Below are positions 9,112 to 35,739 of a DNA stretch of 64,000 nt, piece after piece (position 1 is the stretch's first letter; each line of letters begins with the position of its first letter). Under the pieces are notes generated by a model. It worked only from the letters and a program-made list of their open reading frames with translations. It did not search any database and was not told the origin of the DNA. The translations under genes and the position numbers were made by a program. Source of the DNA: Bacteroides intestinalis (lineage in GTDB: Bacteria > Bacteroidota > Bacteroidia > Bacteroidales > Bacteroidaceae); assembly GCF_902364365.1 (NCBI RefSeq), contig NZ_CABJDN010000003.1:558001-622000 (forward strand), written 5' to 3'.

Positions 9112-9189
9112 CAAAAGTACAGTAGTTATCTCAAATTATCAAGTGCTTGAAACAGAAGGAGAAGAAGAAGTAATGCAAACGGTTGCATG
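9112..9189 (-). promoter_or_regulatory. Operator-linked promoter of the amylase/debranching unit
   Basis: Palindrome ATGCAAACGGTTGCAT at 9174-9189 (core 14-mer 9175-9188) is a LacI-family operator type. On the minus strand a -7 element TACTTTTG lies at 9112-9119, leaving exactly 55 bp between operator and -7. The susC promoter has the same 55-bp gap and the LacI gene promoter 54 bp. The -33 region has only a weak TTG (complement of 9141-9143), consistent with an activator-dependent promoter. Confidence 0.75.
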
Positions 9190-9325
9190 AATCAAGAAAA
9201 GATTATCCTACTACTTTTTTAGCGCAACCTCTTTATCTCCTTGCACTAAATATGAAGGAGTAAATCCTACTACTCTCATGTAATGCTTCATCCACATCAA
9301 GTACAGGCAAATTATTCACATCATC

Positions 9326-11293
9326 TCATTGAACATCCGCATATCTTTTTTCAATATTCATAAAATTCTCCACTACTCTCCAATATTCTTCCTTATCATG
9401 TGGACGTGGTTGCCAATCAGGATCGGGACTATTACTCACAGCTTCATTCCAATTAGTATCATCCATAAACTTATAGTCAACCGTACAAGAGGATAATTCT
9501 CTTATTGGTTTAAGGAATATATATCCATCGAACAAATCGGATAGAATAAAATCTTTATGCCCCATTGAATAATAACTATAATCGCGTAATTCACCAATAT
9601 GAGAACCTTTCAAATCAAAGCCAATGGGGTTGTTCTGAGATTTTTCCATTATTAGTTCTAACTTTCCAGCCGCTGGGGAAATTAATGTTGGTTGCTGATT
9701 AGGATAATTAAAGAAAGGCTGGTGCAAAGCTACAGATACTACTTTATTGCCATATTTATCGTACAGCAAATTTCCTAAAAAACGATTCTCATAACGTACA
9801 AAACCAGGAGAAGTATAATCATAATAAGGAAAACGGTAGGACGTAAATGCATGAATAGTCCCAGTCAGAACCAATATTTTCTCGTGAACAGCCAACACTT
9901 CACGTTCCAACAATGCACACCGAAAGTCTTCTGTATTCCCTAAAGGAAACACTTGCTTCATATTTTCCGGTGTTCTAGCTCCTTCAAACTTTTCCCAATT
10001 GTAGCGATAACTAATATTTAAAACACGAAACTTTTTCGCTTGCTCCGGTAATGAGTGATTCCATTCCCAAGCTGCTTTATAAAGATTCATATACTCAACT
10101 ATAGCCCAACGGGTATTATAATTGAACATCAATTGACGAGCTAAATTCTCATTATATCTTGGTGCATTTATCAATGAATCCAATTGCTTCTGATCCTCAT
10201 ATGCTCCAAATTCCATACCTAACATATAGATACCATTCGCATACAACTTCGGTATCATTTTTCTAACGAAGTCCAAATTTTCCTTAACGCCATGGTCTTC
10301 AGCCAATAACACGATGTCAGCATCTTTAAACTTAGAAATCAAATAATCATCAGGCGACATATCTGTATCCTTTTTATCACAAATACAATCTTTTCTATCA
10401 GTTCCTAAAAGAAATAATAACGGATTATCTAAACGCTTATTCCAATCCACTTCCGTATGCGCAGCTCCCGGAAACACTTTAGACACCCACATTGGTCCTT
10501 TCCAGCCTTTCTTCCTCATCAATTTGTCCAGTTCATCCTGATAAGGAGGATAATAAGCATCTAAGGTAGCATCTCCTCTATCCATATAAATTATACGACT
10601 GTTAGCCGTCGGAAGGTTCTCATCAAGATAATTCCTAAAAGCTCTCGACCATTGGTCCGCTTTTTCTTTAGATAGTTCCTTACTTAATATCATGGGAACA
10701 TGAGTCGACATACATGCAGCCCCTCCAAATACTTCCGGGTATTCACAAAGTGCATATAGTGAAATTAGGCCACCCATACTGGAGCCCATCACAAAAGTAT
10801 GCTCAACACTCTTATTCGTGGAATATTCTTTATCAATAAAAGGCTTTACTTCTTCTACCAGAAAACGAAGATAGTTATCTGCATTAAAACTAACATTCCC
10901 CGAAACTACACTATCTGGTAAATTCCTCAATGCTTTTTGAGGAAAGTAGTCTGCATATCTCGTTTCCGGGATATTTGCCACTCCTACAACAATACAAGAC
11001 CTAATCTTCTTTTCATTCAAAAGTTTTCCAACAACTTCATCGATTCCCCATTCTTGTTTATTCCAAGTGGTATTTGCATCAAACAGCATTTGACCATCAT
11101 GCATATAAAGAACATCATATCTTTCTTTTGTTGAGTAATCTGTAGGTAACCATACGAAAACATCACGAGAAGGAACAATGGTAGAATTAAATCGAGAATA
11201 TTCTATAAGTTTCCCTGATGATATAGTTTGTTGAGCAATGGTCCATTGGCACAGCAACAGAGATAATAATATAAATAAAAGTCTTGTTTTCAT
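9326..11293 (-). CDS. Secreted esterase fused to an erythromycin-esterase/ChaN-like domain
   Basis: A 655-residue protein with a signal peptide cleaved near TIAQ (residue 21). Residues about 25-300 form an alpha/beta-hydrolase of the Esterase D/enterochelin-esterase type: oxyanion region VLYMHDGQML near 61, nucleophile Ser172 in GSSMGG, and a catalytic His in GAAHTEVDW near 277. Residues about 315-655 resemble the EreA/ChaN-like fold, with AEDHG and GMEFG segments followed by LTGTIHAF. Substrates are unknown; the N-terminal domain may deacylate a carbohydrate. The first 57 residues are clearly homologous to those of the downstream-numbered susA-like protein. Transcribed after susA with a 128-bp gap; an open reading frame continues in the same frame for 37 codons past the TGA stop. 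Confidence 0.7.
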   Translation of the reverse strand: MKTRLLFILLSLLLCQWTIAQQTISSGKLIEYSRFNSTIVPSRDVFVWLPTDYSTKERYDVLYMHDGQMLFDANTTWNKQEWGIDEVVGKLLNEKKIRSCIVVGVANIPETRYADYFPQKALRNLPDSVVSGNVSFNADNYLRFLVEEVKPFIDKEYSTNKSVEHTFVMGSSMGGLISLYALCEYPEVFGGAACMSTHVPMILSKELSKEKADQWSRAFRNYLDENLPTANSRIIYMDRGDATLDAYYPPYQDELDKLMRKKGWKGPMWVSKVFPGAAHTEVDWNKRLDNPLLFLLGTDRKDCICDKKDTDMSPDDYLISKFKDADIVLLAEDHGVKENLDFVRKMIPKLYANGIYMLGMEFGAYEDQKQLDSLINAPRYNENLARQLMFNYNTRWAIVEYMNLYKAAWEWNHSLPEQAKKFRVLNISYRYNWEKFEGARTPENMKQVFPLGNTEDFRCALLEREVLAVHEKILVLTGTIHAFTSYRFPYYDYTSPGFVRYENRFLGNLLYDKYGNKVVSVALHQPFFNYPNQQPTLISPAAGKLELIMEKSQNNPIGFDLKGSHIGELRDYSYYSMGHKDFILSDLFDGYIFLKPIRELSSCTVDYKFMDDTNWNEAVSNSPDPDWQPRPHDKEEYWRVVENFMNIEKRYADVQ

Positions 11294-11421
11294 ACGCTAA
11301 ATTATAAAATAATCACTCTCTTTTTCCAGATTCTCCTGTAGCACCATTTCTTTTAAATTACTCCAATCCAATTCAAGCATTAAAAATACTATAGGAGCAA
11401 TACTTTCTTCATATCCCAATA

Positions 11422-13380
11422 TTATAATTGGAGCACAAGCACTTCTTTAGGTTGTAAATGAAGTATTCTTCCTAAGGACACATCACCGTTCGTCAACACA
11501 TTCTTCGAACTAATCTTATCTCCTATTACTTCTTTATAAGGAGCCAAGTCCAAATCAACTTCTTTATTTATTCCATTCATTATAACCAGTATACTCCTTC
11601 CATCATAGGAACGCTCATACACATATACATTATTACGAGGCATAAAATGTTTCATCTTACCTTTAGAAATAACATCATTTCCTTTACGCCAATGCAGTAA
11701 CTTGCTCATAAAATCGAAAGCTTCCTGCTGCATAGCCGTTCTTCCATTTTCCTGGAAAACAGACATTGCATCTCCTTTCCAACCTCCCGGCATATCCGGA
11801 CGTACATACCCAAAATCTATTTTATTACTACCAGACATTAGTAATTCCTGCCCATAATACAATTGTGGTATGCCCGGAATTGTCAATAACATGGTAACTG
11901 CCTGTTTATATGCATTCAAATTTTCCGGATCCTCCAACAAGAAGCGATCCGTATCATGATTTTCAAGTAGACGCATCACATTGTTTATGTCAGGATAGCA
12001 AAAATCATAAGCAAAATGTTCGAAAAGAAGCTGTAAACCAGTATCCCAGGAAGTTTCTTCATGGAAAACTTTACCAGCTATTGTTCGCAAACGAAAATCC
12101 ATCACAGATTTCAGCTTTGTATTAGCTTTCTCATTAACCACACTATTTTGTTGCCAATATGCAGTACCTACAGGGTTATTGGGAATCATTACTTCACCTA
12201 CAATATTGAAATTTGGATATTCCTCAAAAACTTCTTTACACCAACGAACCATCATATCCGGATCCGGATATACATATGTATCTTGGCGAATACCATCTAA
12301 ATCTGCATATTCAATCCACCAGATTGAATTCTGAATCAAATAATCAGCAAGAAAACGATTTCTTTGATTTAAATCGGGCATTGTAGGCACAAACCAACCA
12401 TCCGTCAGTTCCTGCTTATCTATATCCGAAGCATAAGGATCAAAAAATACAGTTTTATTATGATTGGTCTCGATATATTTATGTGAATTATTAAACCAAT
12501 TCTGCATTGGTGGATCAAGCAGCCAAGGATGATTGGTTCCACAATGATTAAAAACCATATCCATTATCAGTTTCATTCCACGTTGATGCATAGATTCCGC
12601 CAAACAAACATAATCTTCATTAGTTCCTAAACGAGGATCTATTTTATAGTAATCCGTTGCAGCATAACCATGATAAGAGCCTTCACCCATATCATTTTCC
12701 AAAACAGGAGTTGTCCAGATTGCCGTAATCCCCAAGCTATCCAAATAATCAAGATGTTGCATAATACCGGCTAAATCACCACCATGACGAGCATTTACAT
12801 CCTTACGATTTACTGTATAAGGATACTTCATCTGTATATGATCATTGCTTTCATCACCATTGGCAAAGCGGTCCGGCATTAATAAATATACGACATCAGA
12901 AGAATTAAAGCCAATCCTATCTTCTCCCTTACGCTGGCGTTCTTTCAATTCATAAGTATAATTCAGCTTACGTTTTCCTTTAACGAATTCTATCTGAAAT
13001 TTACCCGGTACCGCATCTTTTACGTCTAAATACAAAACCAGATAGTTTGGACTCTCCATTGGGTAGACCTCCTTTAAGACAACTCCCGGATGATTTATTT
13101 CAGGTTTATATGTTGCTATATTTGAACCATATACCATCAACTGTAAACAGGTGTTTTTCATGCCAGACCACCAAAAAGCAGGTTCCACTTTTTCTATCTT
13201 CTCATTTTTCTTTCCTGAATAATGTGAAGAGAGCCAAGTTGAATTATCCTGTGAAGGAATAATAGAAGATTCAAACCTAGAATATTCAATAAGTCTTTCT
13301 GACGACATGATTTGTTTAGCAAGTCCCAATTGACATAGCAATAAAGCAAAAGATAAAAATAAAGTTTTAGTTTTCATCAT
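11422..13380 (-). CDS. susA: SusA-like neopullulanase/cyclomaltodextrinase (GH13) with a grafted N-terminus
   Basis: A 652-residue periplasmic GH13 enzyme. After the signal peptide (to about residue 21) comes a 35-residue stretch shared with the neighbouring esterase. The usual N-terminal beta domain starts at about residue 61 (KIEKVEPAFWWSGMKN), followed by the catalytic barrel: nucleophile Asp367 (DGIRQD), acid/base Glu396 (IVGEVM), and His475-Asp476 (LLENHDTD). SusA-type enzymes cut pullulan and maltodextrins imported by SusC/D. Two adjacent ATGs (13380 and 13377) are possible starts. It lies downstream of susF, with a GH53 remnant and a possible terminator in the 368-bp gap; I see no strong promoter of its own. 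Confidence 0.85.
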   Translation of the reverse strand: MMKTKTLFLSFALLLCQLGLAKQIMSSERLIEYSRFESSIIPSQDNSTWLSSHYSGKKNEKIEKVEPAFWWSGMKNTCLQLMVYGSNIATYKPEINHPGVVLKEVYPMESPNYLVLYLDVKDAVPGKFQIEFVKGKRKLNYTYELKERQRKGEDRIGFNSSDVVYLLMPDRFANGDESNDHIQMKYPYTVNRKDVNARHGGDLAGIMQHLDYLDSLGITAIWTTPVLENDMGEGSYHGYAATDYYKIDPRLGTNEDYVCLAESMHQRGMKLIMDMVFNHCGTNHPWLLDPPMQNWFNNSHKYIETNHNKTVFFDPYASDIDKQELTDGWFVPTMPDLNQRNRFLADYLIQNSIWWIEYADLDGIRQDTYVYPDPDMMVRWCKEVFEEYPNFNIVGEVMIPNNPVGTAYWQQNSVVNEKANTKLKSVMDFRLRTIAGKVFHEETSWDTGLQLLFEHFAYDFCYPDINNVMRLLENHDTDRFLLEDPENLNAYKQAVTMLLTIPGIPQLYYGQELLMSGSNKIDFGYVRPDMPGGWKGDAMSVFQENGRTAMQQEAFDFMSKLLHWRKGNDVISKGKMKHFMPRNNVYVYERSYDGRSILVIMNGINKEVDLDLAPYKEVIGDKISSKNVLTNGDVSLGRILHLQPKEVLVLQL

Positions 13381-13401
13381 ACATAAAATAAAAGATACTA
13401 T

Positions 13402-13620
13402 TTACAAAGGTTGAACAAACAGATTAAACTCTTTCATTGCCGGAAGAAGTTTGCCCATATGGTCATCAAAAAGTCCACGATTAAGCCAACCTTCTGTTAC
13501 ATTATTACCGCAAGCGTTTTCCTCGGGAAACCACCCAATTAATCCCGTCACGTTGACATGACGACGTAATTCAGCCACAAGTTCGTGATTGAATATGCGC
13601 TGTCCTTCAGCTGTTTTAGA
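13402..13620 (-). pseudogene. C-terminal remnant of a GH53 endo-beta-1,4-galactanase
   Basis: Translation of the minus strand gives 72 codons ending in TAA at 13404-13402, with an in-frame TAA immediately upstream and no start codon at the 5' end. The peptide contains TAEGQRIF, NVTGLIGWFPEEN and WLNRGLFDDHMGKLLPAM, the typical C-terminal end of Bacteroides GH53 arabinogalactan endo-galactanases. Only about one fifth of a normal gene remains. The intact GH53 at 26922-28106 has a different C-terminus (VFYWEPECR...), so this is not a recent partial copy of it. Confidence 0.85.
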
Positions 13621-13640
13621 TTAGTGATTGTTTCAATGAA

Positions 13641-13682
13641 AAGCAAAAGCCCCCTTCCCCGTTTTTCAATGCGAGAAAGAGG
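13641..13682 (-). terminator. Possible intrinsic terminator after susF
   Basis: On the minus strand, CCTCTTTCTCGC (complement of 13671-13682) can pair, with several G-U pairs, with CGGGGAAGGGGG (complement of 13650-13661). It is followed by CTTTTGCTTTT. The hairpin is 66 bp past the susF stop. The G-U content makes it weaker than a textbook terminator, so partial read-through into susA is possible. Confidence 0.5.
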
Positions 13683-13748: not shown

Positions 13749-15170
13749 TTAGTTAGCTGCTACAATCGTACAATAAGATTTACCTTCACAAAGAGGATAA
13801 AGGTTGATGGTATATTTACCAGCTGCCTCAATCTTCAAATTAGCACCGTCATTGGTAGTCAGACTTTCGATAGTACCGCCCCAGCTAATATCCCAAGCAT
13901 CGTTAGCACGGAACTTAAGTTCACCCTCAGACAGTTCAGCAGTAATAGACCAGCAATGGTTCTCCACGCTATATACCATATCTGTATCAGCATCCCAGCC
14001 CCCAGAAGTGGCAGAACCAATGATACCTATCGCAATGGGAGTCAAGGTATAACTCTTTTCATTCAAGTCAACAATCACCTGATAGAAACCTGCCTCTTCG
14101 GTCATCATTATATTGGCAGCATCAGCAGCCGTACTGAAATCTGCACCATAGTTAGTACCATTCCAACTTTCCTCCGAACTGAACTTGAAACCATTTTGGT
14201 TGAGATACATATACCCCTTATAGATGTTATTAAATTCAGGACTTGCCATCACATCAATATGTTTCCACCCATTTGCATCACCAGCCATATAAAGATAAGC
14301 AGTAGCAGGAGCAACCGAATAAGTGTAATTAACAGCATCAAATGTAATTATAAAATGCCCTTGTCCAGTAATTGTAGGAGTTTCCACATTATACACATCA
14401 CCTGTCCAAACAGCAAAGTTTTCAATCTTATCATCACCATTTACACGGCAACCAATCTGCCCAGCATTGGCACCATCCCAACCGGCAGCTATATCATAAG
14501 CTTTATATAGCTTAAACCAATTAGAACCTCCATTCTTAGTTTCTATTGTAGCTTGATAAATGCCCTCTTTACCTTCAACCAGCTCCATAGGAATAGGATT
14601 TTCTACGTCCCATCCACTACCATTTTCTACAAAATCCCCCATCAGCACATATCCATTAGCTGAAATTTCCGGAGTAGTAATTGGAGTAAGTTTGGCTTGA
14701 GAAGTACCTGAAGTATTTACCGCTTCACCGTTTTTCAATTTAACAGCAACATTCATATTTACATTGAGTACACGCTCTACATGAGCACGGCTGAAGAAGG
14801 CATCACGAACAACTGAATCAAGTTCAAGAGTATTCACCTTCACAATATTCCCTTCTTTAAATGCCGCATTGATAGTCACACCGTTAATATTTATGCTGTT
14901 CATCTTAATAGAAGCCACCTCTGAATTCGATGAAGAGAGAACGGCAATTTCCACAGAGTCTGTCTTTTGTTCTTCCGCTTCGATAGTACTGTAAAACTTA
15001 TCCATATCCACAACTGCATCGGAACCTGCGGCAAAACTGATTTCATATTTAGCGGCCGCTTCTTCAGGAGAATTGGATTGGGGGTCAGCCCAATCCGTAT
15101 AATCTTCCGTACAAGCACCTAAGGTAATTCCAGCGAGGAATATACCTGCGAGTATTTGATTTTTCTTCAT
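13749..15170 (-). CDS. susF: SusF-like outer-membrane starch-binding lipoprotein
   Basis: A 473-residue surface lipoprotein. The signal peptide ends at lipobox LGAC (Cys20). A proline-poor N-terminal Ig-like domain (about 40-165) is followed by three tandem starch-binding modules, seen as repeated units with aromatic/GDxNGW-like motifs: YVLMGDFVENGSGW (about 180), YLYMAGDANGWK (about 290) and IGIIGSATSGGWD (about 380). SusF binds starch at the cell surface and is not catalytic. It lies 35 bp after susE in the susCDEF operon. The SusF name rests on operon position and repeated binding domains; SusE and SusF are hard to separate by sequence. Confidence 0.85.
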   Translation of the reverse strand: MKKNQILAGIFLAGITLGACTEDYTDWADPQSNSPEEAAAKYEISFAAGSDAVVDMDKFYSTIEAEEQKTDSVEIAVLSSSNSEVASIKMNSININGVTINAAFKEGNIVKVNTLELDSVVRDAFFSRAHVERVLNVNMNVAVKLKNGEAVNTSGTSQAKLTPITTPEISANGYVLMGDFVENGSGWDVENPIPMELVEGKEGIYQATIETKNGGSNWFKLYKAYDIAAGWDGANAGQIGCRVNGDDKIENFAVWTGDVYNVETPTITGQGHFIITFDAVNYTYSVAPATAYLYMAGDANGWKHIDVMASPEFNNIYKGYMYLNQNGFKFSSEESWNGTNYGADFSTAADAANIMMTEEAGFYQVIVDLNEKSYTLTPIAIGIIGSATSGGWDADTDMVYSVENHCWSITAELSEGELKFRANDAWDISWGGTIESLTTNDGANLKIEAAGKYTINLYPLCEGKSYCTIVAAN

Positions 15171-15205
15171 AATGTTTTTCTTTTAAAATAAGATTATCAT
15201 TCAGG

Positions 15206-16378
15206 TTATTTTACCTCACCCGTATCTACACCGTCTTCAGTAGCACCTACAGTAAGATAGAGTTTCTGGCCCGCTCCAGCATTTACGCTGTATTCAGAAC
15301 CCATATCAGTGTTCCAATTGCTGGCTATATTTGCATTCTCACGCCAGAAAACTTTACCCTCCAAAAGCGTAAATTCAGTTTTCCACCAATCAAAATCACC
15401 TACTTGAGCATAGGCACGTAGTTCACCTCCAGATACAAATTCAGCAGATATCCATTGACCAGTATTATCAGCGGGAGCAACCATCGGGGCAGAAGGAGGC
15501 GTAGGAGTAAATCCTCCATTAGCATCACCTGTAACCAGAAGTTGTGCAGGATAAAAAGTCAGTGTGTAATCAATAGCTTCACCATTAATCTTACCCTTAA
15601 TGTAGAGTGTATACCATCCACCATTTTTCACTTTCACATTACCACCATTATCAGAAACATCCGCACCGGCTTGATCATCAATAGTTTTAAAATCGGCATG
15701 GCCCAGCCATTGTTGAGGATAAGTTCCCCATTTGAATTCGGCATCATTAGGAAGGTAAACTATTGTAAAGAAGTTACCGGCCATACCATTAATAAGTGCC
15801 ATTGGTCTCCAAGTTGTCCAAGCAGTTCCGATACTCGAACCGCATACATAGATATCCTCAGGCAATGTAATACTCGGAGCCTGATAAGTAGCTATCACTT
15901 GTATCTTTATAACATTAGAGTAACAACTCCCCAACTCCATACCATTAACATTGGCATGTAAGCGTACATAGAGGTCTTTCACTTCATTAGAAGGATATGT
16001 CACACCTTCATTGGCATCCTGAAACATAGTAATTACAGCATCATTCAATCTACTACCCGATACTTTAATGGTAGCAGAAGTCGAGCTTGCCACAACTTTG
16101 TACACAGGTTCTTCCGCACTGAAATCTTCAAAAGAAATCTCCACATCATAGTTAGTACTCAAAGGTATGCCACCATAATCAGGTTGGCTGGTAGTAAAAG
16201 TGAGTTGATCAGTAGTCAGCAAGTCCAATACATTATTGGCTGCGTTGGCAGGCATATTCAATACAAATCCTGTAGTATTTTCGTGGAATGTAGGATTGCT
16301 ATCCATATCTTTCTCACATGAGGTGACCAACACCAAAGTAAGAACGGGCAGCAACATTCCTAACAGTATCTTTTTCAT
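15206..16378 (-). CDS. susE: SusE-like outer-membrane starch-binding lipoprotein
   Basis: A 390-residue lipoprotein with lipobox LVTSC (Cys21). The N-terminal domain (about 30-155) is the Ig-like SusE domain with the typical FVLNMPANA ... LTFTTSQPDYG segment. Two starch-binding modules follow (about 165-270 and 275-390), with motifs YVCGSSIGTAWTTWRPM and LLVTGDANGG. It works with SusD and SusF in capturing starch chains at the surface for SusC. It sits between susD (40-bp gap) and susF (35-bp gap) in one transcript. Confidence 0.85.
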   Translation of the reverse strand: MKKILLGMLLPVLTLVLVTSCEKDMDSNPTFHENTTGFVLNMPANAANNVLDLLTTDQLTFTTSQPDYGGIPLSTNYDVEISFEDFSAEEPVYKVVASSTSATIKVSGSRLNDAVITMFQDANEGVTYPSNEVKDLYVRLHANVNGMELGSCYSNVIKIQVIATYQAPSITLPEDIYVCGSSIGTAWTTWRPMALINGMAGNFFTIVYLPNDAEFKWGTYPQQWLGHADFKTIDDQAGADVSDNGGNVKVKNGGWYTLYIKGKINGEAIDYTLTFYPAQLLVTGDANGGFTPTPPSAPMVAPADNTGQWISAEFVSGGELRAYAQVGDFDWWKTEFTLLEGKVFWRENANIASNWNTDMGSEYSVNAGAGQKLYLTVGATEDGVDTGEVK

Positions 16379-16418: not shown

Positions 16419-18098
16419 TTAATAACGCGGATTTTGAGACAAGTTCTCATTGCCATTAATGTCATCGGCAGGAATAGGATATACGTTAAAGAAGTCTTCC
16501 ACGCTCTTTCCTTCTGCTACACCACCCTTAAAATCCCAAACGTATTTGTCACCTGTGAAAAGACCAAAACGGATCAAATCACTACGACGACGACCTTCCA
16601 TATAGAACTCACGACACCATTCATCAATAATATATTGTTCGGTAATGGTAGCAGGAGTAGAAGCACCTGCACGGCTACGCAAAACTTCAATATCAGCACG
16701 CGCTTGTTGCGGGTCACCAGTCAAACGGAACTTAGCCTCCGCACGAGTCAGATACATTTCAGCATAACGTATCAAAGGGATATCCACATCGGGGAATTCA
16801 TTATGTGAAGTCGCTGCACCATCTGTACGAATGTTACTCCATTTCACAATAGAAAGACCGGAGTTAAAGCCCGCAATTTGTTCAGCCTGTAACTTACGAA
16901 GTCCGCCACCACAACCCGAATAGAACAATGCACGATGGTCGTTAGCCTTCTTCTGCACATCTTTGGTAGTAGTACCTGCTGCTTCATCAAGAGCGATAAT
17001 CTGAGCCTCAGTAGCTCCATCGGGGGCTTTCACAGTAGCAATCGGACAATCTTCGAGCGTAGAGAAGAATTTCTTAACCAAAGCTGCACGGGAGAAGTTA
17101 CAGCTCCAACCATTGGAAGTACCCATATAAGGCATTCCGGTGATACGGGTAGAACTTACCAGATAGTTGGCACCACTATAACATTTTGTTTTTGCACCAT
17201 CCTGACGGATAGGCAGGATGATTTCTTTCATAGCTTGCGGATTTTGGTCATTATCAGCCATAAACACTTGTTCATAACCAGTATAGCCATTCTTTTCAAC
17301 TTTAGAAAGTTCATATTTCCCATCAAGCAGATCGCAATAGTCAATAGCCTTCTGATAGTCTTTTACCGCACCTTTGGTATAAACAGCAGAGTTCAGAGCC
17401 AAACGGGCATGGAGCATATAAGCGGCACCTTTATCGGCACGTCCAAAGTTAGAAGAGTTATTGAATGCACCCACTTCGGCAAGATCCGGTTCTATTTCGG
17501 TCAACTCCTTGTCAATCCAGTCATAAAGTTCTTTACCAGCTTTCTCTACGGGCAACTCATAAATGTCATACGTAGTCTTGAAAGGAGCCTTTCCCCAAAG
17601 GTCGAGGAAGTACCACATGTGAAGGGCACGCAAGAAACGAACTTCTGCACGATACTGTTTATAATCAGGATCATCAGCTTTATCCTCAGTGTTAGTGAGA
17701 TAGAAATTACAAAGAGTAACATCAAAAGCCAGACGCTGGAACGTCCATTGCACGCGAACAGATGAAGCCGTCCAGTCAATATTGGTGATTTGAGGAATAT
17801 CAGCGTCAGTCTGCCAAGCCCAAAGGCATTCATCGGTACAAAGTTCTTGCAGATTGAATGTAGTACGGTAGAATCCGCTTTCACCTTCATCACTACTGAT
17901 ATCTCCACTACCGGCAGGACCTTTCTGGCCTGTCAGGCCCAGTGTACTGTAGATTTTTGCCAACAGTTCCATATCTCCATACGATGAACTGGACTGCGGA
18001 TCGATAGACGAAATATTCAAGTCGTTGACGCACGACGTTGCCACTCCACCCATAAGAAGGGCTGCAAGGGCTGTTTTCAAAAATATATGTTTCATCAT
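16419..18098 (-). CDS. susD: SusD starch-binding outer-membrane lipoprotein
   Basis: About 559 residues, RagB/SusD family. The lipobox ends ATSC, about 23 residues from the chosen start, and the TPR-like alpha-helical core follows. The segment DEGESGFYRTTFN and the aromatic CLWAW correspond to the starch-binding arc described for Bacteroides thetaiotaomicron SusD, as does NGWSC further on, so this is a true starch SusD rather than a paralogue for another glycan. The open frame reaches an ATG at 18107; I prefer the ATG at 18098 (MMKHIF), which puts a normal-length signal before the lipobox. It forms the lid over the SusC channel and starts 17 bp after the susC stop. Confidence 0.93.
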   Translation of the reverse strand: MMKHIFLKTALAALLMGGVATSCVNDLNISSIDPQSSSSYGDMELLAKIYSTLGLTGQKGPAGSGDISSDEGESGFYRTTFNLQELCTDECLWAWQTDADIPQITNIDWTASSVRVQWTFQRLAFDVTLCNFYLTNTEDKADDPDYKQYRAEVRFLRALHMWYFLDLWGKAPFKTTYDIYELPVEKAGKELYDWIDKELTEIEPDLAEVGAFNNSSNFGRADKGAAYMLHARLALNSAVYTKGAVKDYQKAIDYCDLLDGKYELSKVEKNGYTGYEQVFMADNDQNPQAMKEIILPIRQDGAKTKCYSGANYLVSSTRITGMPYMGTSNGWSCNFSRAALVKKFFSTLEDCPIATVKAPDGATEAQIIALDEAAGTTTKDVQKKANDHRALFYSGCGGGLRKLQAEQIAGFNSGLSIVKWSNIRTDGAATSHNEFPDVDIPLIRYAEMYLTRAEAKFRLTGDPQQARADIEVLRSRAGASTPATITEQYIIDEWCREFYMEGRRRSDLIRFGLFTGDKYVWDFKGGVAEGKSVEDFFNVYPIPADDINGNENLSQNPRY

Positions 18099-18115
18099 TA
18101 TATGCATTTAATAGG

Positions 18116-21100
18116 TTAAAAATTCAGGCTTAAGCCAACTTGAATGCTGAAAGGACGCGGATAAGGATTAGAATCAATACCGCTTGCTACCTCAGGGTCG
18201 ATGCCTTTATATTTAGAAATAATAAAAGGATTTTGAGCAGTAAGGAACGCACGGCCAGAGCATGTTTCATGACCGGCTACCTTAAATAATGCAGGGAAAG
18301 AATAACCTAAAGTAATGTTTGAGCACTTCAGATAAGAAGCATTACGTACGAAGTAATCGCTCAAATAATTATCGTTACCTACTCCTACACCGGTAAAGCC
18401 CAATGCTACAGCCTCGGCAGTAGAGTTATGCAGGGCACTGTTAGAATACAAGCCGGATTGGCTGACCATTGCACGATTCGACAAGAAATCGTAATAAACA
18501 TAGTTACCAATAGAAGCACGGAAAGACATACTCAAATCCCAGTTCTTATAGAGGAATTTAGTTGTAAGACCCATAATAACATCAGCAGAGGGTTTCTTGT
18601 AGAAATAACGGTCACCATTGTCAATACGTCCGTTACCATCACGGTCTACGTACATACCTTCAATAGGTTTACCATTCTCATCATATACTTGCTGATACAC
18701 AAAGAATGAGTTAGTTGCTTTACCTACAGTATTTGCCTGAATCAAGGTATTGTTACCACGGCTGATCTTATCTCCCGACCATGCATAATAGCCTGCATCG
18801 CCATCCACCAAGTCAGTGATCTCATTATGGTTCCAAGCAATATTATAGCTTACATCCCAAGTAAAATCTTTAGTTACAATAGGTTTAGCATTAATAGAGA
18901 ATTCCACACCATAATTCTTCAGCGAACCGATATTCTTTGTCAACTGAGAACCAAACTGCATACCTACAGGAATAGTGATAGAATTCAGCAAATCTTTGGT
19001 TTCGCGGTAGTAACCATCAATATTGGCTGTGATGCGGTTATTCAGGAAGCCCAAATCGATACCGGCATTATAGGTAGTTGTAGTCTCCCACTTCAAGTCA
19101 GGATTGTAAGCCGACGGACGCATCGTACCATAGTAAGTATCGCCAAAAGGATACTGAGCGAAAGAGTCGCTTGAAGTATAATGAGTTTCATAACCGAAAT
19201 CAGAGTTAATATCCTGCTGACCTGTCATACCCCATCCCAAACGAAGTTTGAATTCATTCCACCAAGTAAGATTCTTCATAAATGCCTCTTCATTGATTTT
19301 CCACGCCAATGCCACAGAAGGGAAGTAACCCCATCTATTGTCTTCAGAGAAACGAGAAGAACCATCGGCACGGAACGTAGCCGTAAGCATATATCTGTTG
19401 AGCAACGTATAATTTAAGCGACCGAAGTAAGAAACTAAAGAGTTATGCGTAGCCCATGCTTGTTCCTCTCTCAATTTGGCATCATGAGGAGTACCATCGT
19501 AAGGATCGGTACCTTGACCATAGTCATAACCACTGCGGTGGAAGTGACTTTCTTCGGCACCAACCATTATATCAAAATTATGGGCGCCTATTTCCTTAAC
19601 GTACTGAGCATAAGCATTAGCTGTGACACTATATTTATAAGTCTGCGTTATACCATTCCAACCAAAGTAGTTGTTAGAATAAGAATACTTGGAGATTATA
19701 TCGTCCTGCTTACTTTCAGTATACTGTCCACCATAACTGGCATGCAGACGTAAATCTTCAAAGCCATGTACCTTATAGTCTACATCAAAGTTACCTGTAA
19801 AGTCATTGGCAACAGCCTGTACATCCTTAAGTTTCAACAGAGCTAAAGGATTCTGAGGAGCATTGGGATTATTAGTATATTTCCATTCTGCATTGAAATC
19901 TTTAGGTGACTGCGAATGTTGAAAATAACCATCGAAAAATGGAGCACGGGCATCATCAGCATCAAAGTATACCGGCTGAGTGGGATCCATTGAAAGAGCA
20001 GAACCTATTGCACCGCCTGCATCAGCATAACGGTCTTTCTCATACATATACTTAGCGTTAATCTTCAAATTGAGGTGATCATCGAAGAAAGAAGGAGAAA
20101 GATTCAAGCCGACATTGGCACGGCGCATCCATGAGGTTTCAACGATACCGTCAGAAGCGTTATATCCCAAACTCAAACGGTAAGGCATATTTTTCAAACC
20201 ACCGGATACTGATACATTATGACTATGAGAGATAGCAGTGCGGAATATTTGATCTTGCCAATCAGTATTAGCGTTACCCATACCTACTTCACCGGCTTTA
20301 TCGCCCCAGATGTTATTAACAAGTTCACGAAACTCATCACCATTGAGTACATCATACTTTTTCTGGATCATAGAAATTGTCATGTCACCGTTGTAAGAAA
20401 CCTTAGGGGCAGAACCACTCTTACCTTTCTTAGTGGTAATAATGATAACACCGTTTGAAGCACGGCTACCGTAAATGGCAGTAGCAGAAGCATCCTTTAA
20501 AACTGTAAAAGTTTCAATATCATTCGGATTAACCATAGCCAAGGGATTACTCATTCCTTTTGGAGTATTGTTATCAATGGTCAAACCATCAATAACAATC
20601 AACGGATCGTTTGAAGCATTAAGAGAAGATCCGCCACGCACGCGAATCTGAGCACCTGCACCCGGAGTACCACCTGCAGTGATAACATCGACACCGGCCA
20701 CTTTTCCAACCAACATATCCTGCGCATTGTTGGTGATACCTTTACTGAGTTCATCCGGTTTGATTGCCGTTACCGAACCTGTAAGATCATCTTTCTTGGT
20801 ACGACCATACCCCACTACTACTACTTCACTCAATAATTCTGCATCATCTTTCAGTGTCACCATCACCATAGGAGCAGCAGCTACTTCTTGTGTCTGATAA
20901 CCAATAAAAGATATTGTTAATGTAGCACCTTTAGGAACACTCAAGGTGAAATTTCCATCAAGGTCGGTGATTGTACCATTAGAGGTATTTCCTTTTTCTA
21001 CAACATTCGCGCCTATCACTTCCAATCCCGTAGCATCTTTTACATGCCCTTTCACGGTAATGTTCTGTGCATAAACGCCAACAGACAAGAATAACCCTAC

Positions 21101-21148
21101 TAATAGGGGAAGAATCATTCGATAGATTCTAAGATTAACTTGCTTCAT
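18116..21148 (-). CDS. susC: SusC TonB-dependent starch oligosaccharide transporter
   Basis: A 1010-residue SusC/RagA-family outer-membrane beta-barrel. A signal peptide (to about VYAQ, residue 28) is followed by a carboxypeptidase-regulatory-like domain (about 30-105), the TonB-box/plug segment SEVVVVGYGR (about 108-117) and the plug with VRGGSSLN (about 170). A 22-strand barrel runs to the terminal aromatic residue (SLNF). It imports maltooligosaccharides bound by SusD, powered by TonB. It is the first gene of the susCDEF operon. A LacI-type operator and a -7 element lie upstream at 21253-21330, implying a ~100-nt 5' leader. Confidence 0.93.
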   Translation of the reverse strand: MKQVNLRIYRMILPLLVGLFLSVGVYAQNITVKGHVKDATGLEVIGANVVEKGNTSNGTITDLDGNFTLSVPKGATLTISFIGYQTQEVAAAPMVMVTLKDDAELLSEVVVVGYGRTKKDDLTGSVTAIKPDELSKGITNNAQDMLVGKVAGVDVITAGGTPGAGAQIRVRGGSSLNASNDPLIVIDGLTIDNNTPKGMSNPLAMVNPNDIETFTVLKDASATAIYGSRASNGVIIITTKKGKSGSAPKVSYNGDMTISMIQKKYDVLNGDEFRELVNNIWGDKAGEVGMGNANTDWQDQIFRTAISHSHNVSVSGGLKNMPYRLSLGYNASDGIVETSWMRRANVGLNLSPSFFDDHLNLKINAKYMYEKDRYADAGGAIGSALSMDPTQPVYFDADDARAPFFDGYFQHSQSPKDFNAEWKYTNNPNAPQNPLALLKLKDVQAVANDFTGNFDVDYKVHGFEDLRLHASYGGQYTESKQDDIISKYSYSNNYFGWNGITQTYKYSVTANAYAQYVKEIGAHNFDIMVGAEESHFHRSGYDYGQGTDPYDGTPHDAKLREEQAWATHNSLVSYFGRLNYTLLNRYMLTATFRADGSSRFSEDNRWGYFPSVALAWKINEEAFMKNLTWWNEFKLRLGWGMTGQQDINSDFGYETHYTSSDSFAQYPFGDTYYGTMRPSAYNPDLKWETTTTYNAGIDLGFLNNRITANIDGYYRETKDLLNSITIPVGMQFGSQLTKNIGSLKNYGVEFSINAKPIVTKDFTWDVSYNIAWNHNEITDLVDGDAGYYAWSGDKISRGNNTLIQANTVGKATNSFFVYQQVYDENGKPIEGMYVDRDGNGRIDNGDRYFYKKPSADVIMGLTTKFLYKNWDLSMSFRASIGNYVYYDFLSNRAMVSQSGLYSNSALHNSTAEAVALGFTGVGVGNDNYLSDYFVRNASYLKCSNITLGYSFPALFKVAGHETCSGRAFLTAQNPFIISKYKGIDPEVASGIDSNPYPRPFSIQVGLSLNF

Positions 21149-21252: not shown

Positions 21253-21330
21253 CAAAAATATGCTTTATAAAAATATTAAAATATAAGAAATATAAGAAAT
21301 ATGCAAATGCAACAGTGCAAACGATTGCAC
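21253..21330 (-). promoter_or_regulatory. Operator-linked promoter of susCDEF
   Basis: Palindrome GTGCAAACGATTGCAC at 21315-21330 (core 21316-21329) matches the LacI-type operator found upstream of the amylase and the LacI gene. The minus-strand -7 element TATTTTTG is at 21253-21260, giving a 55-bp gap. There is no TTTG at -33. Extra TGCAA/TTGCA half-sites flank it (21308-21312 and 21334-21338). Confidence 0.78.
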
Positions 21331-26902: not shown

Positions 26903-26921
26903 TCAAAGTATTTAATTAATG

Positions 26922-28106: not shown

Positions 28107-28153
28107 GGCAAATATAGTTATCAATGATACAAATATAATAAATAAAAGCATAA

Positions 28154-30721: not shown

Positions 30722-30753
30722 GTCATCAAATTCAAGTTGGTTTTTCTTGACGG

Positions 30754-30784
30754 CAAAAGTAATGGAGTGCGATTATTCGTCAAA
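30754..30784 (-). promoter_or_regulatory. Consensus Bacteroides promoter of the galactan operon
   Basis: On the minus strand, -33 TTTG (complement of 30781-30784) and -7 TACTTTTG (complement of 30754-30761) are separated by exactly 19 bp, the Bacteroides sigma-ABfr optimum. Transcription would start near 30747, about 26 nt before the ATG at 30721. Confidence 0.75.
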
Positions 30785-30935
30785 GCAGATATCGGACATA
30801 AAAGGAAACAAAAAGGACACCTACTGATTATCAACAACATAAACAGACTATTTATATGATTCAAGAGCAGCTTTGCTAAACAAAACTCACCACTCGTTGT
30901 TCTCTTCGGAACGATAACAATCTAATAAAGAAACA

Positions 30936-31418
30936 ATGAAAAAGTTAACGTATTCTTTCCTGTTCCTGATGCTCCTGACATCAGTTCCGGCCCTTGCCGA
31001 TTATGCGCCTGTCAATGTACAGACAGCACTGAAAAAGATGTATCCTGCCGCCAAGGATGTTGCCTGGTCACGGGATGAGACCTACTATGTAGCGGACTTT
31101 ATACAGAATGGTTTCGATACAAAGGTCTGGTTCAATTCCGAGGCACAATGGGAAATGAAACAGATTGACTGGGGAACAATGGATGAGGTGCCCAATGCCG
31201 TATACAATGCTTTTGCCGCAAGCGAATATTCCGACGGAATGGTGCAGGGAGTCACCTTAGTTCAGTTCCCCAAACGGGAAGCAGTGGTTTCCGTAGTTGT
31301 GGGAATGGCGAATACACAGACCAGGTACCAACTACTGTTCACCCTTGACGGTGGACTGGAAGATGAACGCAATGCGACCTATTTCAACAACCTGCTTGGC
31401 GCGGAAGTCTTCTTATAA
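30936..31418 (+). CDS. PepSY-like periplasmic protein
   Basis: A 160-residue protein with a signal peptide (to about PALA, residue 21) and PepSY-like/beta-lactamase-inhibitor-like beta domains. The pattern VQTALKKMYPAAKDVAWSRDETYYVADF followed by VWFNSEAQWEMKQID is typical of the PF11396-type family. Many Bacteroidetes carry several near two-component regulators, and a sensory role has been suggested. It converges on the hybrid two-component gene with a 15-bp gap, so the association is only positional. The function is unknown. Confidence 0.75.
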   Translation: MKKLTYSFLFLMLLTSVPALADYAPVNVQTALKKMYPAAKDVAWSRDETYYVADFIQNGFDTKVWFNSEAQWEMKQIDWGTMDEVPNAVYNAFAASEYSDGMVQGVTLVQFPKREAVVSVVVGMANTQTRYQLLFTLDGGLEDERNATYFNNLLGAEVFL

Positions 31419-31433
31419 AAGAGAAGCCCTCCC

Positions 31434-34400
31434 TCACACATACTGTTTCGGAGTCACCCCAAACTCTGCCTGGAAGCATTTAGAAAAATAGGAATGATTG
31501 GAGAAACCGACCATATACATCACTTCGGCCACAGTAAACTTCTGCTGTTTCAGCAGCATAGCCGCCTTTTTCATGCGGATGGACTTAATGTATTCCACAG
31601 GTGTCATACCTGTCAGTTGCTTTATCTTGCGGTACATCTGCTTGTTATTGATGTCGGTCCATTCGCAAAGGGCATTCACATTCAGTTCGGAGTCTGAGAT
31701 GTGTTCTTCAATCAGATGAATCACACTTGCCAGGAACTTCTCATCATAAGAAACTGCCTCTATCTCTTTCGGGGTAGAAAGAACTTCCATGCGGGCTTTC
31801 GCCTCATGCGTCTCCCGGCTATGTAATAATTGCTCCACACGAGAAAGTAAAATATCCGGTTCAAAGGGTTTAGGAATGAAAGCATCTATATGCAACCGGA
31901 TACTTTCAAGCTCTGTTTCCTTATCGCTTTTCGCTGTCAGCAAGATGATGGGAATGGTGGATGTAGGAACATGCTTCTTGATATGACGCACCATTTCAAG
32001 CCCATCCATTACGGGCATCATGACATCAGCTATAATCAGATCGGGCATTAGTTCCAAGGCAAGTTCCATACCTATCTTACCATTTCCTGCCAAACGACAA
32101 CGATACTTGGTATGCAATAGCTGATAGATAAACTCTGAAACTTCCGGAGTATCATCCACAATCAGAAGCACTGGGGCATCCGGAGCGGGCATATCTGTAT
32201 CGAAAGCCGGAATTTCTACTTTGGCAACAGTAAGTTCGATGTCAGAAGAAACAGTTTCCGGAGAAATTTCTACGACAGGCTGTTCCATAGCAATCACCGG
32301 AAGAGTCAGCATAATGGTAGTACCTTTATTCTCTTCTGAAGAAAGGTAAACATTACCGCCATGCAGTTCCGTATAAGTCTTTACCAAATATAGCCCGATA
32401 CCCGTTCCCTCCTTTTTGCCTGCCGTCTTGGGAGACTGAAAGAAACGCTGGAAGACATACGGTTGATCCTGGTGGGGAACACCGATACCTGTATCTGATA
32501 CAGAGATATTCACCTTTTTATCAGAAGCCTGTAAACGAAGCGTTACCTCACCCTCCTCCGGAGTATACTTCACAGCATTAGACAAAAGATTATCCAAGAT
32601 AGATTCCAGCTTTATGGCATCCATCTGTATGTATATCTTTTCACGGTCGGTATAGAAATGGAAAGTTAGCTTCTTCTCTTTCGTCTTCTCCTCTGCATAC
32701 ATGGCAAATAAACCACGCGCAAAAGATACTAGTTCGATTTGAGAAAATATCAGCAACGTATTGTTGCCACTATCCACCCGGTTGAAGTCCAGTCCCTGAT
32801 GAATAAGTGAATTCAGCTTCATGGCATTGCGATGCACCTGCTCCAGTTGTTTCTTTTCCTGCTGGTCCTTGATACCGGGCAGCAGTTTACTGATAGGAGC
32901 GATAATCATGCTCAACGGAGTTTTCAAGTCGTGGGAAAGATTGGTGAAAAACTCTATCTTCGCCTGTGATTGTTCCAGAATCTTCTCCTTCTCCATACGT
33001 TCCAGCTTCAAGCGATTCTTTACACGAAAGAAGTTGATGGTCCAGATCACCAGTACCAAGCAGAGTAAGGCATAGAATACCTTTGCCCACGGAGTATAGT
33101 ACCAGGGCGGAATGATATGAACCTCCAGTGTATAAGCCCGGTCCGATGGTTTTCCATAAATGTCCAACTTACTCACCAGCAGACGATAGTCTCCATAACT
33201 CAGGTTATTGTAAGTAATACGGTTCGTATTCGCTTTCAACAAGTTCCACTCACGATCCACGCCTTCCAGACGATAGACTAATTTGCTTTTCTCTTCAAGA
33301 GAATAAGGCAGGTCGGAAAGTTCAAAGGCAAGGTTATTCTGGTCATAAGCCAGTTCTATCCGTTGCGAGTAACGGATACTTTGTCCGGGCAATGAGAAAG
33401 TACCGGAGCGTCTGGTATCGGAATGTGAAACATCAGTTTGTGAGGCATTGGGCTGATACTGTTGGTTGTTGATGTAAATGGCAGTCAGGATAAGAGGCTT
33501 TTCAGTGTGTTCTGCCAGCAGAACTTCCGGTGAAGATATGGCAAAGCCATCTGCCGTACCCAAATAAAACTCTCCGCTTGTCCGGTCGAAGAACATGCTG
33601 GTGAAGCGTTTATCGGTGATATTCAGCCGGCGAATTTCCAGTGTCCGCTGGTCTGCCACCCAGAAACCATCGGTGGTAGATATCCAGATTTTTCCGTCAG
33701 CCTCAGCCATGGAGAGTATCGCATAGTGGTTGTACTCATCAAAAGGAAGCATGCGGATACTATCGTTATCGGGCTGTACACGCATCACACCACCGGGAAA
33801 GCCTATCCAGATATGACCGTCTTGGGCAGAGAGGATGAAGTTGGGGGTTCTTTCGCCTGTCAGCTCGTCCGGAGCAATATGGGTTATCTCGCCTGTGCGG
33901 GGATTTATCTTCTCGATGCTGTTGGCACTGTTGTACAGCAATGCCCATACATTCCCCTCACGGTCGGGAATCAGCTGGTTGATGAACATGCCCGAAAGGC
34001 CGTTGTGGATGGAATACATCTTCTCTGCCATATAGGAAGCACCGGAGGAACGCATAAGGTTCTGTTTATCCACCACAAAGATTCCACCGAGACAAGTGGC
34101 TATCCAGAGCTGCCCTTCCCGGTCTTCAAATAAATGATACGCCCAGTTGGCATTGTAGCGGCGGGTGCTGTCCACAATACTATAATGGACGAACTGGCGG
34201 TTCTTCGAATCATAACGGCTGATGCTGCCATCGGTAGCCACCCAGAGTTGCCGCTCCCGGTCTTCATAAAGATGGCGTACCCGGTTGTGCGACAAGGGGT
34301 ATTTCCGATCCCCCATTTTATACCAGGCAACCTCTTGTTCTCCCCCCGTGGGCCGGGTGAAACGGATCAGTCCGTTGGTTCCGCCAAACCAGTAGTTTCC

Positions 34401-35447
34401 GTGCGTATCGCGAAGCATGGAATAGAACTGGTTCCCCTCTCCCGTTCCGGTGATTTGTGAAATAGGGATATAACGCAACGCATTATTATTCCGTGACATG
34501 GAAATTCCGTAATCCGTGCCCAGCCAGATGTTATGTTCCCGGTCGGCAAAGATGGTCCAGATGATATTATTGGAGAGTGATTGCAGATTTCGGGAGTCGT
34601 GGACCACGTGCAGCAAAGGTTCTCCTTCCTGATATACATACAAACCATTGTCCGTTCCCACCAGCAACTGCCCACTGCCATCCAGTGCCAACGACTTGAC
34701 GGAATTATCATGGAAAGCATCAATCCTCTGAATACGCCCGTCAGCAGGCGTATATCTGAAAAGACACCCTTCCGTACCGATCCATATGCAGCCACGTGCC
34801 GTATCTTCCAGTAGGGAATTGATAAACTGGTTGCTCCGGTTGCCACTGCGAGGAAGGTCTATTACTTCAAAATGCCGGGTAGCGGGAATATAGCGGCAGA
34901 AGCCATTATAGGTGCCAATATAAAGAAGCCCATCCGAAGAGCGGATCAGTGAATAGATGGTCGGGTGTGGAATACCTTCGGTAACGGCAGAGAGTTGGTG
35001 GTCGTTCAGCGAATAGGTATAGAGGCCGTTCAATGTTCCTAACCACAGCATACCGTCATGCACAAGCAATGCGCGGATATCGGTCGGAAGCTGCATTTCC
35101 AGTTCTTCGTAGGTATCTGTGCGATAGTTGTAAATCAGCAGACCATTGTCGGCACCCAGATAAAGATAGGTACTGTCTACCACTGTACCGCAATAAATCT
35201 GTGTATTGTTACGCTTGGCGAAAGTGAAATGTGGCTGCGTAGAATAACCGTCATAACTGAACAACCCTTTATTGGAACCGATCCATATCAGTCCCTGTGT
35301 ATCTTGCAGGAAGCAATAGATTACAGAAGCTTCCGTCCCCGGACTGATATTATCGAACAAGCGATAATCCGGTTTCTGTCCGGACAGCTTGACGGGAAGC
35401 GTTATCTGCAAAAGTATGAATAGAAGAAGAAAAACAGGTCTGTGCAT
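31434..35447 (-). CDS. Hybrid two-component system sensor/regulator (one-protein HTCS)
   Basis: About 1337 residues. After a signal peptide (to about KLSG) come two seven-bladed beta-propellers made of two-component-regulator propeller repeats (WIGSNKGLFSYD, WLGTLNGLYTY and similar, about 40-700), then a Y_Y_Y domain (about 720-785) and one membrane helix (about 790-810). The cytoplasmic part has HisKA with the phospho-His in LSHDLKTPLS (about 840), an HATPase domain (GTGIGLYLV), a receiver (about 1094-1210, phospho-Asp about 1141 in ADVMMPVMDG) and a C-terminal AraC-type HTH. Such proteins sense a glycan fragment in the periplasm and activate the neighbouring PUL; the galactan operon is the likely target. 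The frame is open to 35510, but the ATG at 35447 starts the signal peptide. Confidence 0.92.
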   Translation of the reverse strand: MHRPVFLLLFILLQITLPVKLSGQKPDYRLFDNISPGTEASVIYCFLQDTQGLIWIGSNKGLFSYDGYSTQPHFTFAKRNNTQIYCGTVVDSTYLYLGADNGLLIYNYRTDTYEELEMQLPTDIRALLVHDGMLWLGTLNGLYTYSLNDHQLSAVTEGIPHPTIYSLIRSSDGLLYIGTYNGFCRYIPATRHFEVIDLPRSGNRSNQFINSLLEDTARGCIWIGTEGCLFRYTPADGRIQRIDAFHDNSVKSLALDGSGQLLVGTDNGLYVYQEGEPLLHVVHDSRNLQSLSNNIIWTIFADREHNIWLGTDYGISMSRNNNALRYIPISQITGTGEGNQFYSMLRDTHGNYWFGGTNGLIRFTRPTGGEQEVAWYKMGDRKYPLSHNRVRHLYEDRERQLWVATDGSISRYDSKNRQFVHYSIVDSTRRYNANWAYHLFEDREGQLWIATCLGGIFVVDKQNLMRSSGASYMAEKMYSIHNGLSGMFINQLIPDREGNVWALLYNSANSIEKINPRTGEITHIAPDELTGERTPNFILSAQDGHIWIGFPGGVMRVQPDNDSIRMLPFDEYNHYAILSMAEADGKIWISTTDGFWVADQRTLEIRRLNITDKRFTSMFFDRTSGEFYLGTADGFAISSPEVLLAEHTEKPLILTAIYINNQQYQPNASQTDVSHSDTRRSGTFSLPGQSIRYSQRIELAYDQNNLAFELSDLPYSLEEKSKLVYRLEGVDREWNLLKANTNRITYNNLSYGDYRLLVSKLDIYGKPSDRAYTLEVHIIPPWYYTPWAKVFYALLCLVLVIWTINFFRVKNRLKLERMEKEKILEQSQAKIEFFTNLSHDLKTPLSMIIAPISKLLPGIKDQQEKKQLEQVHRNAMKLNSLIHQGLDFNRVDSGNNTLLIFSQIELVSFARGLFAMYAEEKTKEKKLTFHFYTDREKIYIQMDAIKLESILDNLLSNAVKYTPEEGEVTLRLQASDKKVNISVSDTGIGVPHQDQPYVFQRFFQSPKTAGKKEGTGIGLYLVKTYTELHGGNVYLSSEENKGTTIMLTLPVIAMEQPVVEISPETVSSDIELTVAKVEIPAFDTDMPAPDAPVLLIVDDTPEVSEFIYQLLHTKYRCRLAGNGKIGMELALELMPDLIIADVMMPVMDGLEMVRHIKKHVPTSTIPIILLTAKSDKETELESIRLHIDAFIPKPFEPDILLSRVEQLLHSRETHEAKARMEVLSTPKEIEAVSYDEKFLASVIHLIEEHISDSELNVNALCEWTDINNKQMYRKIKQLTGMTPVEYIKSIRMKKAAMLLKQQKFTVAEVMYMVGFSNHSYFSKCFQAEFGVTPKQYV

Positions 35448-35474
35448 ACACTTCAGGTTGTTAAAGGTCGGGGA

Positions 35475-35482
35475 CAAAGATA
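35475..35482 (-). promoter_or_regulatory. -7 element of the HTCS gene
   Basis: CAAAGATA reads TATCTTTG on the minus strand, matching TAnnTTTG, 27 bp upstream of the ATG. The best TTTG-like -33 candidate is off the ideal 19-bp spacing. Confidence 0.45.
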
Positions 35483-35662
35483 AAATTAATCTGTCACAAA
35501 CGCCCTGCATCTTTCTGAAAAATTGCCTAAATCTTATGAGGGAATCCTTTAAAGTAACCTATCTAATCGTTTGCTATGCTCTGAAACTTTTCACTCCTTC
35601 TTCCTTCTATGTAACACCCAGCCCAATACATTCTGCCTCATACTTACCAACTCTTAGAATAC

Positions 35663-35739
35663 ATGCAAACGTTTGCACAACTCTCTAACCCGATAACTGT
35701 CAGTGAAGAAGCGATATTTCATGTATTCAGCTATTTTTG
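35663..35739 (+). promoter_or_regulatory. Operator-linked promoter of the LacI-family gene
   Basis: Perfect palindrome TGCAAACGTTTGCA at 35664-35677 is followed 54 bp later by the plus-strand -7 element TATTTTTG (35732-35739), identical to the susC -7. The spacing matches the susC and amylase promoters, suggesting autoregulation by activation. Confidence 0.72.

Follow-up and report, generated by a model that had tools for sequence, protein, structure and literature searches.

We analysed a 64,000-nucleotide stretch of the Bacteroides intestinalis genome (contig NZ_CABJDN010000003.1, positions 558,001 to 622,000; hereafter the window), which contains a starch utilization locus on the minus strand and, ~14.5 kb away on the plus strand, a gene cluster led by a LacI-family regulator. 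The starch locus encodes a SusC-type TonB-dependent transporter (18116..21148; NCBIfam TIGR04056, 857.6 bits), a SusD starch-binding lipoprotein (16419..18107; NCBIfam NF033071, 986 bits against a cut-off of 725; PDB SusD 3ck7, 620 bits), SusE (15206..16378; Pfam SusE), SusF (13749..15170; Pfam SusF_N), and a SusA-like GH13 enzyme of cyclomaltodextrinase/neopullulanase type (11422..13380; Pfam Alpha-amylase, Cyc-maltodext_N and _C), which is 49% identical to the GH13 enzyme at the SusA position of a classical sus locus. These genes are followed by a 943-residue GH13 amylase (6253..9084; Pfam Alpha-amylase and CBM_48) and a GDE_C glucosidase (3888..6236; Pfam GDE_C), which are probably cotranscribed, judging from their adjacency. 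The plus-strand cluster consists of the regulator (335 residues, 35860..36867), an MFS sugar transporter (458 residues, 36981..38357; Pfam MFS_1 and MFS_2), and a GH65 maltose phosphorylase (784 residues, 38545..40899; Pfam GH65), whose top PDB match is maltose phosphorylase 1h54 (669 bits), with kojibiose phosphorylase next (397 bits). Gene calls and Pfam agree with the gene order given in a preliminary description of this DNA. The regulator, a putative maltose-responsive activator, contains an N-terminal LacI helix-turn-helix (PF00356, 58 bits, cut-off 27) and a periplasmic-binding-protein-like ligand domain (Peripla_BP_3, PF13377, 103 bits, cut-off 26.5), and its best PDB matches are CcpA and PurR. 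NCBIfam gave it no exact name, as all 19 hits were under the cut-off. SusR, the known starch regulator of Bacteroides thetaiotaomicron, had no match in the window (best E 2.7), as the preliminary description had also noticed, and no SusR orthologue accompanies the sus genes of the window.

Palindromic putative operators with a central CG, a hallmark of LacI sites, are located near the promoter of the regulator gene and near those of its candidate targets. A pattern scan placed them at 9174..9187 for the amylase promoter (TGCAAACGGTTGCA), 21316..21329 for the susC promoter (TGCAAACGATTGCA), and 35664..35677 for the lacI-MFS-GH65 promoter (TGCAAACGTTTGCA). These three sites are the only zero-mismatch matches to TGCAAACGNTTGCA in the whole window; when up to three mismatches are allowed, the window contains 27 matches, which is not above chance (shuffle mean 19.8, with 13 of 100 shuffles reaching 27). 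Each of the three promoters has the TAnnTTTG element at -7 that characterizes sigma-ABfr promoters. The element of the amylase promoter is TACTTTTG (9112..9119, minus strand, gap to the operator 54 bp), and TATTTTTG is found both at the susC promoter (21253..21260, minus strand, gap 55) and at the operator-linked lacI promoter, termed P1 (35732..35739, plus strand, gap 54). The preliminary description had placed the amylase palindrome one base too far, at 9175-9188, with a gap of 55 bp, while its coordinates and gaps for the susC and lacI sites are exact. Taking -7 as the centre of TAnnTTTG would place the middle of the operator near -73.

We assessed the equal spacing by shuffling the three 150-bp flanks while preserving dinucleotides. 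TAnnTTTG occurred in all three flanks in 175 of 40,000 shuffles, and in none of the 40,000 were all gaps within 1 bp of each other. The three spacers are not alignable in register, with 12 to 15 of 52 positions identical.

The same geometry is found in relatives. We compared the window with the best 80 of 149 loci that encode a relative of the regulator, and divided them into a Bacteroides type (the window, L001-L058, and L080) and a Paludibacter type (L059-L079). When a central CG was required and sites closer than 140-154 bp to the end of a locus were skipped, the window and the 80 loci contained 95 operators within one mismatch, 90 of which have TAnnTTTG at 52-55 bp, on one side in 63 and on both sides in 27. 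In total, 117 TAnnTTTG elements lie at gaps 52-55, compared with 0.54 per position elsewhere. With up to two mismatches, 106 operators show the spacing on any side and 37 of them on both. On the lacI side, 70 of the 80 loci have a counterpart of the window site, with an operator of at most two mismatches and TAnnTTTG at 52-55 bp. For 51 Bacteroides-type P1 promoters, the gap is 54 bp in 38, 55 in 10, and 53 in 3 (mean 54.1, standard deviation 0.5), and the leader of the same promoters varies with a standard deviation of 37.6. Their spacers are close to unalignable (median identity 0.35, compared with 0.28 when shuffled). The gap in the 18 Paludibacter-type P1 promoters is 52 bp in 16 and 53 in 2, and the susC-side promoters counted have gaps of 54-55 bp in both groups alike. 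Thus the length of the spacer is conserved, and not its sequence. Three of the five operators outside the 52-55 spacing are second, proximal operators in L053, L054, and L055. Upstream of lacI in these loci, tandem operators lie ~21 bp apart, or two helical turns, with gaps of 53 and 31-32 bp to the same TACCTTTG element. The tight gap in the 51 promoters and the two-turn distance of the tandem sites correspond to class I activation, in which the upstream operator keeps a fixed distance from the core promoter and a fixed helical phase.

We next consider the genes that the outward side of the lacI operator faces, using the 68 of the 80 loci that have the lacI-side spacing and enough flank. In 36 of them susC is the divergent neighbour and lies no more than 700 bp from the operator; a susC-facing TAnnTTTG is found at exactly 54 or 55 bp in 31 of these. 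In the other 32, where susC is farther away, is absent from the flank, or the contig ends, an outward element lies at 54 or 55 bp in only 3; 19 have none between 45 and 66 bp, and 10 have one at 56-59 or 66 bp. Five divergent loci (L010, L026, L027, L028, and L056) contain a separate susC-facing operator with the same spacing. This arrangement, which is also that of the window, recurs in several loci where susC is farther away (e.g., L006, L007, L012, L020, L021, and L058). We infer that the shared operator is the older state.

At the scale of whole genomes, the regular spacing noted in the preliminary description held among relatives: it is sharply peaked and tracks the presence of the regulator across 80 Bacteroides genomes. 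A loose pattern that allowed any gap of 39-69 bp gave 147 matches in these genomes, compared with 2 for the reversed pattern, and the gap was 54 bp in 56 matches, 55 in 59, 53 in 6, 56 in 7, and elsewhere in 19. In 20 named genomes picked from the 80 loci, the loose pattern at gaps 39-69 gave 65 matches, compared with 3 for the reversed pattern. An orthologue of the regulator (at least 60% identity; the next matches are at most 40%) is encoded in 43 of the 80 Bacteroides genomes. In a tally that drew on all 147 matches, a site with a gap of 52-55 bp was present in 43/43 genomes with the orthologue and in 3/37 without it; the three exceptions (G192, G196, and G218) are 72-85% complete. Among genomes at least 90% complete, sites are found in 32/32 with the orthologue and 0/17 without. 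This is a strong association, though not 49 independent trials, because the genomes share ancestry. In a phylum-wide sample of 118 genomes, in which the nearest genome compared (G001) is the only one of its genus, family, or order, there was no sign of the system beyond G001, apart from one match with a gap of 52 bp in G152. G001 has 4 matches, all at 54-55 bp; 7 of the 117 other genomes have one match each, with gaps of 52 (G152), 67, 45, 44, 63, 57, and 51 bp, and the reversed pattern gave 3 matches in this sample.

G001, a Bacteroides cellulosilyticus-type genome that has 22% of sampled words in common with the window, contains an operator within one mismatch at 10 places. TAnnTTTG lies at 54-55 bp in four of them; the other six have none within ~136 bp and probably arose by chance. 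The fourth spaced target, on another contig, is a GH97 enzyme of 718 residues encoded beside enolase, with a gap of 54 bp. The same site is found in G210, 36 bp before the same GH97 gene and 2.6 Mb from lacI on one contig. The sequence of the enzyme places it in the SusB type, with the SusB alpha-glucosidase 2d73 as its best PDB match (1205 bits). It is not SusB itself: in SusR-bearing genomes the copies nearest to it (85-86% identity) are distinct from the one linked to sus (72-75%). The gene content of the targets, including this GH97 enzyme, which the preliminary description lacked, bears out its suggestion of a starch/maltose regulon.

The distribution of SusR was examined with a query taken from a classical susRABCDEF locus in G002, which matches PF19904 and not LacI. 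In 17 of the 80 genomes (in two pieces in G206), most of the query length was matched at 50% identity or more, and two more proteins, in G195 and G199 (47-48%), fall inside the SusR clade on a tree of 22 proteins, which brings SusR to 19/80. None of the 19 SusR genomes has the LacI orthologue. The sample therefore consists of 43 genomes with the LacI protein, 19 with SusR, and 18 with neither, 13 of which are less than 90% complete; one of the 18, G197, keeps a 235-residue SusR piece at 87%. In the LacI-bearing genomes the best SusR match is at most 44% identical among the matches listed, and some have no match at an E of 1e-30. Six of these 43 genomes were placed on the tree, all outside the SusR clade, and the others were judged by score. 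We also considered the SusR homologues of B. cellulosilyticus-type genomes as starch regulators and rejected them. The best one (43%, G001 C60) lies outside the SusR clade (support 100/100) and clusters, with modest support (80/81), with the second SusR paralogues that G002, G013, and G022 encode.

The operator-linked promoters differ from a second lacI promoter in their -33 boxes. TTTG at 17-22 bp before the -7 element, the -33 trait of sigma-ABfr promoters, is absent from the three operator-linked promoters of the window. The preliminary description had found no good -33 box at any of them, which is right for susC and lacI P1; at the amylase promoter, TTG rather than TTTG precedes the -7 element by 20 bp. 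Among Bacteroides-type operator-linked promoters, TTG at 18-21 bp is found in 0/51 for lacI P1, 3/24 on the susC side, and 1/19 for others. The second lacI promoter, P2, is off the operator spacing and has its -7 element TACCTTTG at 35827..35834 and a TTTG -33 box at 35804..35807 (both plus strand, read from the sequence), 19 bp apart. TAnnTTTG within 65 bp of the lacI start codon is found in 55 of 81 sequences, and it reads TAYCTTTG in 47 of the 55, although a few may be P1 itself; TTG at 18-21 bp accompanies 28 of these 55 P2 promoters. The weak -33 boxes at operator-linked promoters, compared with P2, form the pattern expected where an activator makes up for missing -33 recognition, and P2 may supply basal regulator.

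Taken together, we consider it probable that a LacI-family activator bound at operators centred near -73 ties SusCD starch capture, the amylase, and cytoplasmic maltose phosphorolysis into one regulon. In the proposed mechanism, the protein encoded at 35860-36867 would bind TGCAAWCGNTTGCA operators at starch and maltose promoters, and a cytoplasmic maltose or maltodextrin signal would lead it to recruit RNA polymerase in the fashion of a class I activator. The target promoters have a -7 element and mostly a poor -33 box. The predicted regulon comprises its own putative operon, lacI-MFS-maltose phosphorylase, which would be under positive autoregulation, together with a susCDEF-GH13 operon and the GH13 amylase. 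In both relatives examined for it, the distant GH97 alpha-glucosidase would be a further member. The separate promoter P2, with its normal -33 box, would provide basal regulator. The LacI protein would thereby fill the role that SusR has in B. thetaiotaomicron. The proposal that the protein activates derives from the promoter geometry and the weak -33 boxes. An operator near -73 does not overlap the core promoter and often faces two promoters, so it would be badly placed for blocking polymerase.

Several observations weigh against this proposal. Most LacI-family proteins studied are repressors. In G001, 15 strand matches within one mismatch compare with 6 in the reversed control, so weak operators alone are partly due to chance. 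The sampled genomes are related, and their counts are not independent events. The lacI-side spacing is missing in 10 of the 80 loci, five of which have an operator that lacks the spacing, and five no operator within the scanned stretch of at most 600 bp. B. cellulosilyticus-type genomes carry SusR-like paralogues, with 12 matches in G001. With regard to the -33 box, TTG lies at 18-21 bp in 15 of 21 Paludibacter-type susC-side promoters, so a missing box is not universal; this side is the exception in that group (lacI 1/18, other 1/10). The amylase promoter of the window has a partial box, and, in view of a passage on johnsoniae (PMC7366714), an absent -33 box is weak evidence.

Three other explanations were considered. 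The LacI protein may act on the same sites as a repressor that maltose releases, whether through looping, for instance, or by keeping another activator away. Such repression would be the commonest mode in the family and would suit the resemblance to CcpA and PurR, and the tandem operators of L053-L055 bring a proximal site to 31-32 bp from the -7 element. However, most promoters have a single operator far upstream, the distance is strict on unrelated promoters, the -7 elements on both sides of 27 of the 95 operators lie at 52-55 bp, Bacteroides-type operator-linked promoters have weak -33 boxes, and work on OsuR of Bacteroides fragilis reportedly describes an activator. We therefore regard repression as improbable. 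It is still less probable, and indeed very doubtful, that the sites belong to another regulator co-inherited with the LacI protein. The pairing of regulator and operator here is deduced from sequence, which leaves room for such a partner; against it stand the LacI-like palindrome with its central CG, the presence in 75 of 80 loci of an operator of at most two mismatches ahead of the regulator's own gene, and the agreement between site and orthologue in 77 of 80 genomes, the rest being the three incomplete ones. Lastly, the three elements are short and AT-rich, and their equal spacing could come from chance or from inheritance of one promoter. We consider this practically ruled out: chance spacing is rejected by the shuffles and the reversed-pattern controls, and the spacers are unrelated.

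Activators of class I, such as Escherichia coli CRP, bind an operator at a set distance upstream of the promoter, near -70. The arrangement described here resembles theirs in that distance and differs in the LacI fold of the protein. A closer precedent is probably OsuR. Spence, Wells and Smith are said to have reported in 2006 that OsuR is an activator required for maltose induction of the four-gene starch operon osuABCD and for growth on maltose in B. fragilis, so that a maltose-dependent activator in this group is probably already known. Two B. fragilis loci, L022 and L080, encode a LacI orthologue of 87-88% identity that is divergent from genes resembling susC, susD, susF, and amylase, and a single operator lies 55 bp from the -7 element on either side. 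The four-gene order of osuABCD (susC, susD, lipoprotein, amylase) matches these two loci, and OsuR may correspond to this LacI protein. In the open-licence literature, where operators and activation were only lightly queried, we did not find the operator, the fixed geometry, the wider regulon, or the absence of co-occurrence with SusR described.

The SusR regulon of B. thetaiotaomicron is similar in its maltose-dependent control of starch-binding, transport, and glucosidase genes. According to excerpts of Ravcheev et al. 2013 (PMC3878776), SusR resides in the membrane, senses periplasmic maltose, and binds direct-repeat sites, and none of the four LacI-family regulons described there for B. 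thetaiotaomicron serves starch. The present regulator is a LacI-fold protein, in contrast to a PF19904 membrane protein with direct repeats. Excerpts of a 2024 paper (PMC11633381) describe B. fragilis and Bacteroides uniformis, both without a SusR homologue, as having sus loci with predicted LacI-type regulators, MFS transporters, and GH65 enzymes, and state that these traits are lacking in the four predicted sus loci of B. cellulosilyticus, save two predicted SusR homologues. Our data on G001 amend this statement: the lacI cluster shares a contig with susC, ~24 kb separate the lacI and susC operators, both of which have a -7 spacing of their own, and the SusR homologue that matches best falls outside the SusR clade.

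What is known of starch use in gut Bacteroides comes chiefly from SusR of B. thetaiotaomicron. We lean towards a broader reading, in which the master starch switch in slightly more than half of the Bacteroides genomes sampled is a cytoplasmic LacI-family activator and not SusR, acting on several unrelated promoters, often two per operator, from a fixed position near -73. The choice of regulator would then divide the genus into members that sense maltose outside the inner membrane, through SusR, and members that sense it inside, through the LacI protein together with a transporter and maltose phosphorylase. If this is true, more of the sampled genomes (43, compared with 19 of 80) use a different regulator and sense maltose in another compartment. 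The operator rule would be precise enough for genome-wide target prediction, and the system would offer a clean test bed for activation by a LacI fold at a Bacteroides promoter without a -33 box. It may also have a bearing on why species react differently to maltose and to drugs like acarbose.

Some further features were observed. Between lacI and susC, at 24416-35510 of the window, lies a cluster with GH2, GH53, an 855-residue protein that matches no Pfam family, and a hybrid two-component regulator. This cluster probably serves galactan, and its intervening position may explain why the lacI operon has been left out of the sus locus. A short TGCATATTT-like stretch at 21297-21305, ~10 bp after the susC operator, recurs by eye in many susC promoters of Bacteroides. 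Three genomes that lack the LacI orthologue (G197, G022, and G231) contain a different conserved stretch beginning GCAATCGTTTGCGCAAATATAGA, with TAnnTTTG at a gap of 61 bp, which is perhaps another LacI-family regulon. The protein encoded at 9326-11293, between the susC operon and the amylase, joins an esterase domain to a ChaN/Tiki-type domain. A type I restriction system at 51283-59917 has a RhuM-family gene between HsdR and a single 1094-residue fusion of HsdM with an HsdS-type specificity domain.

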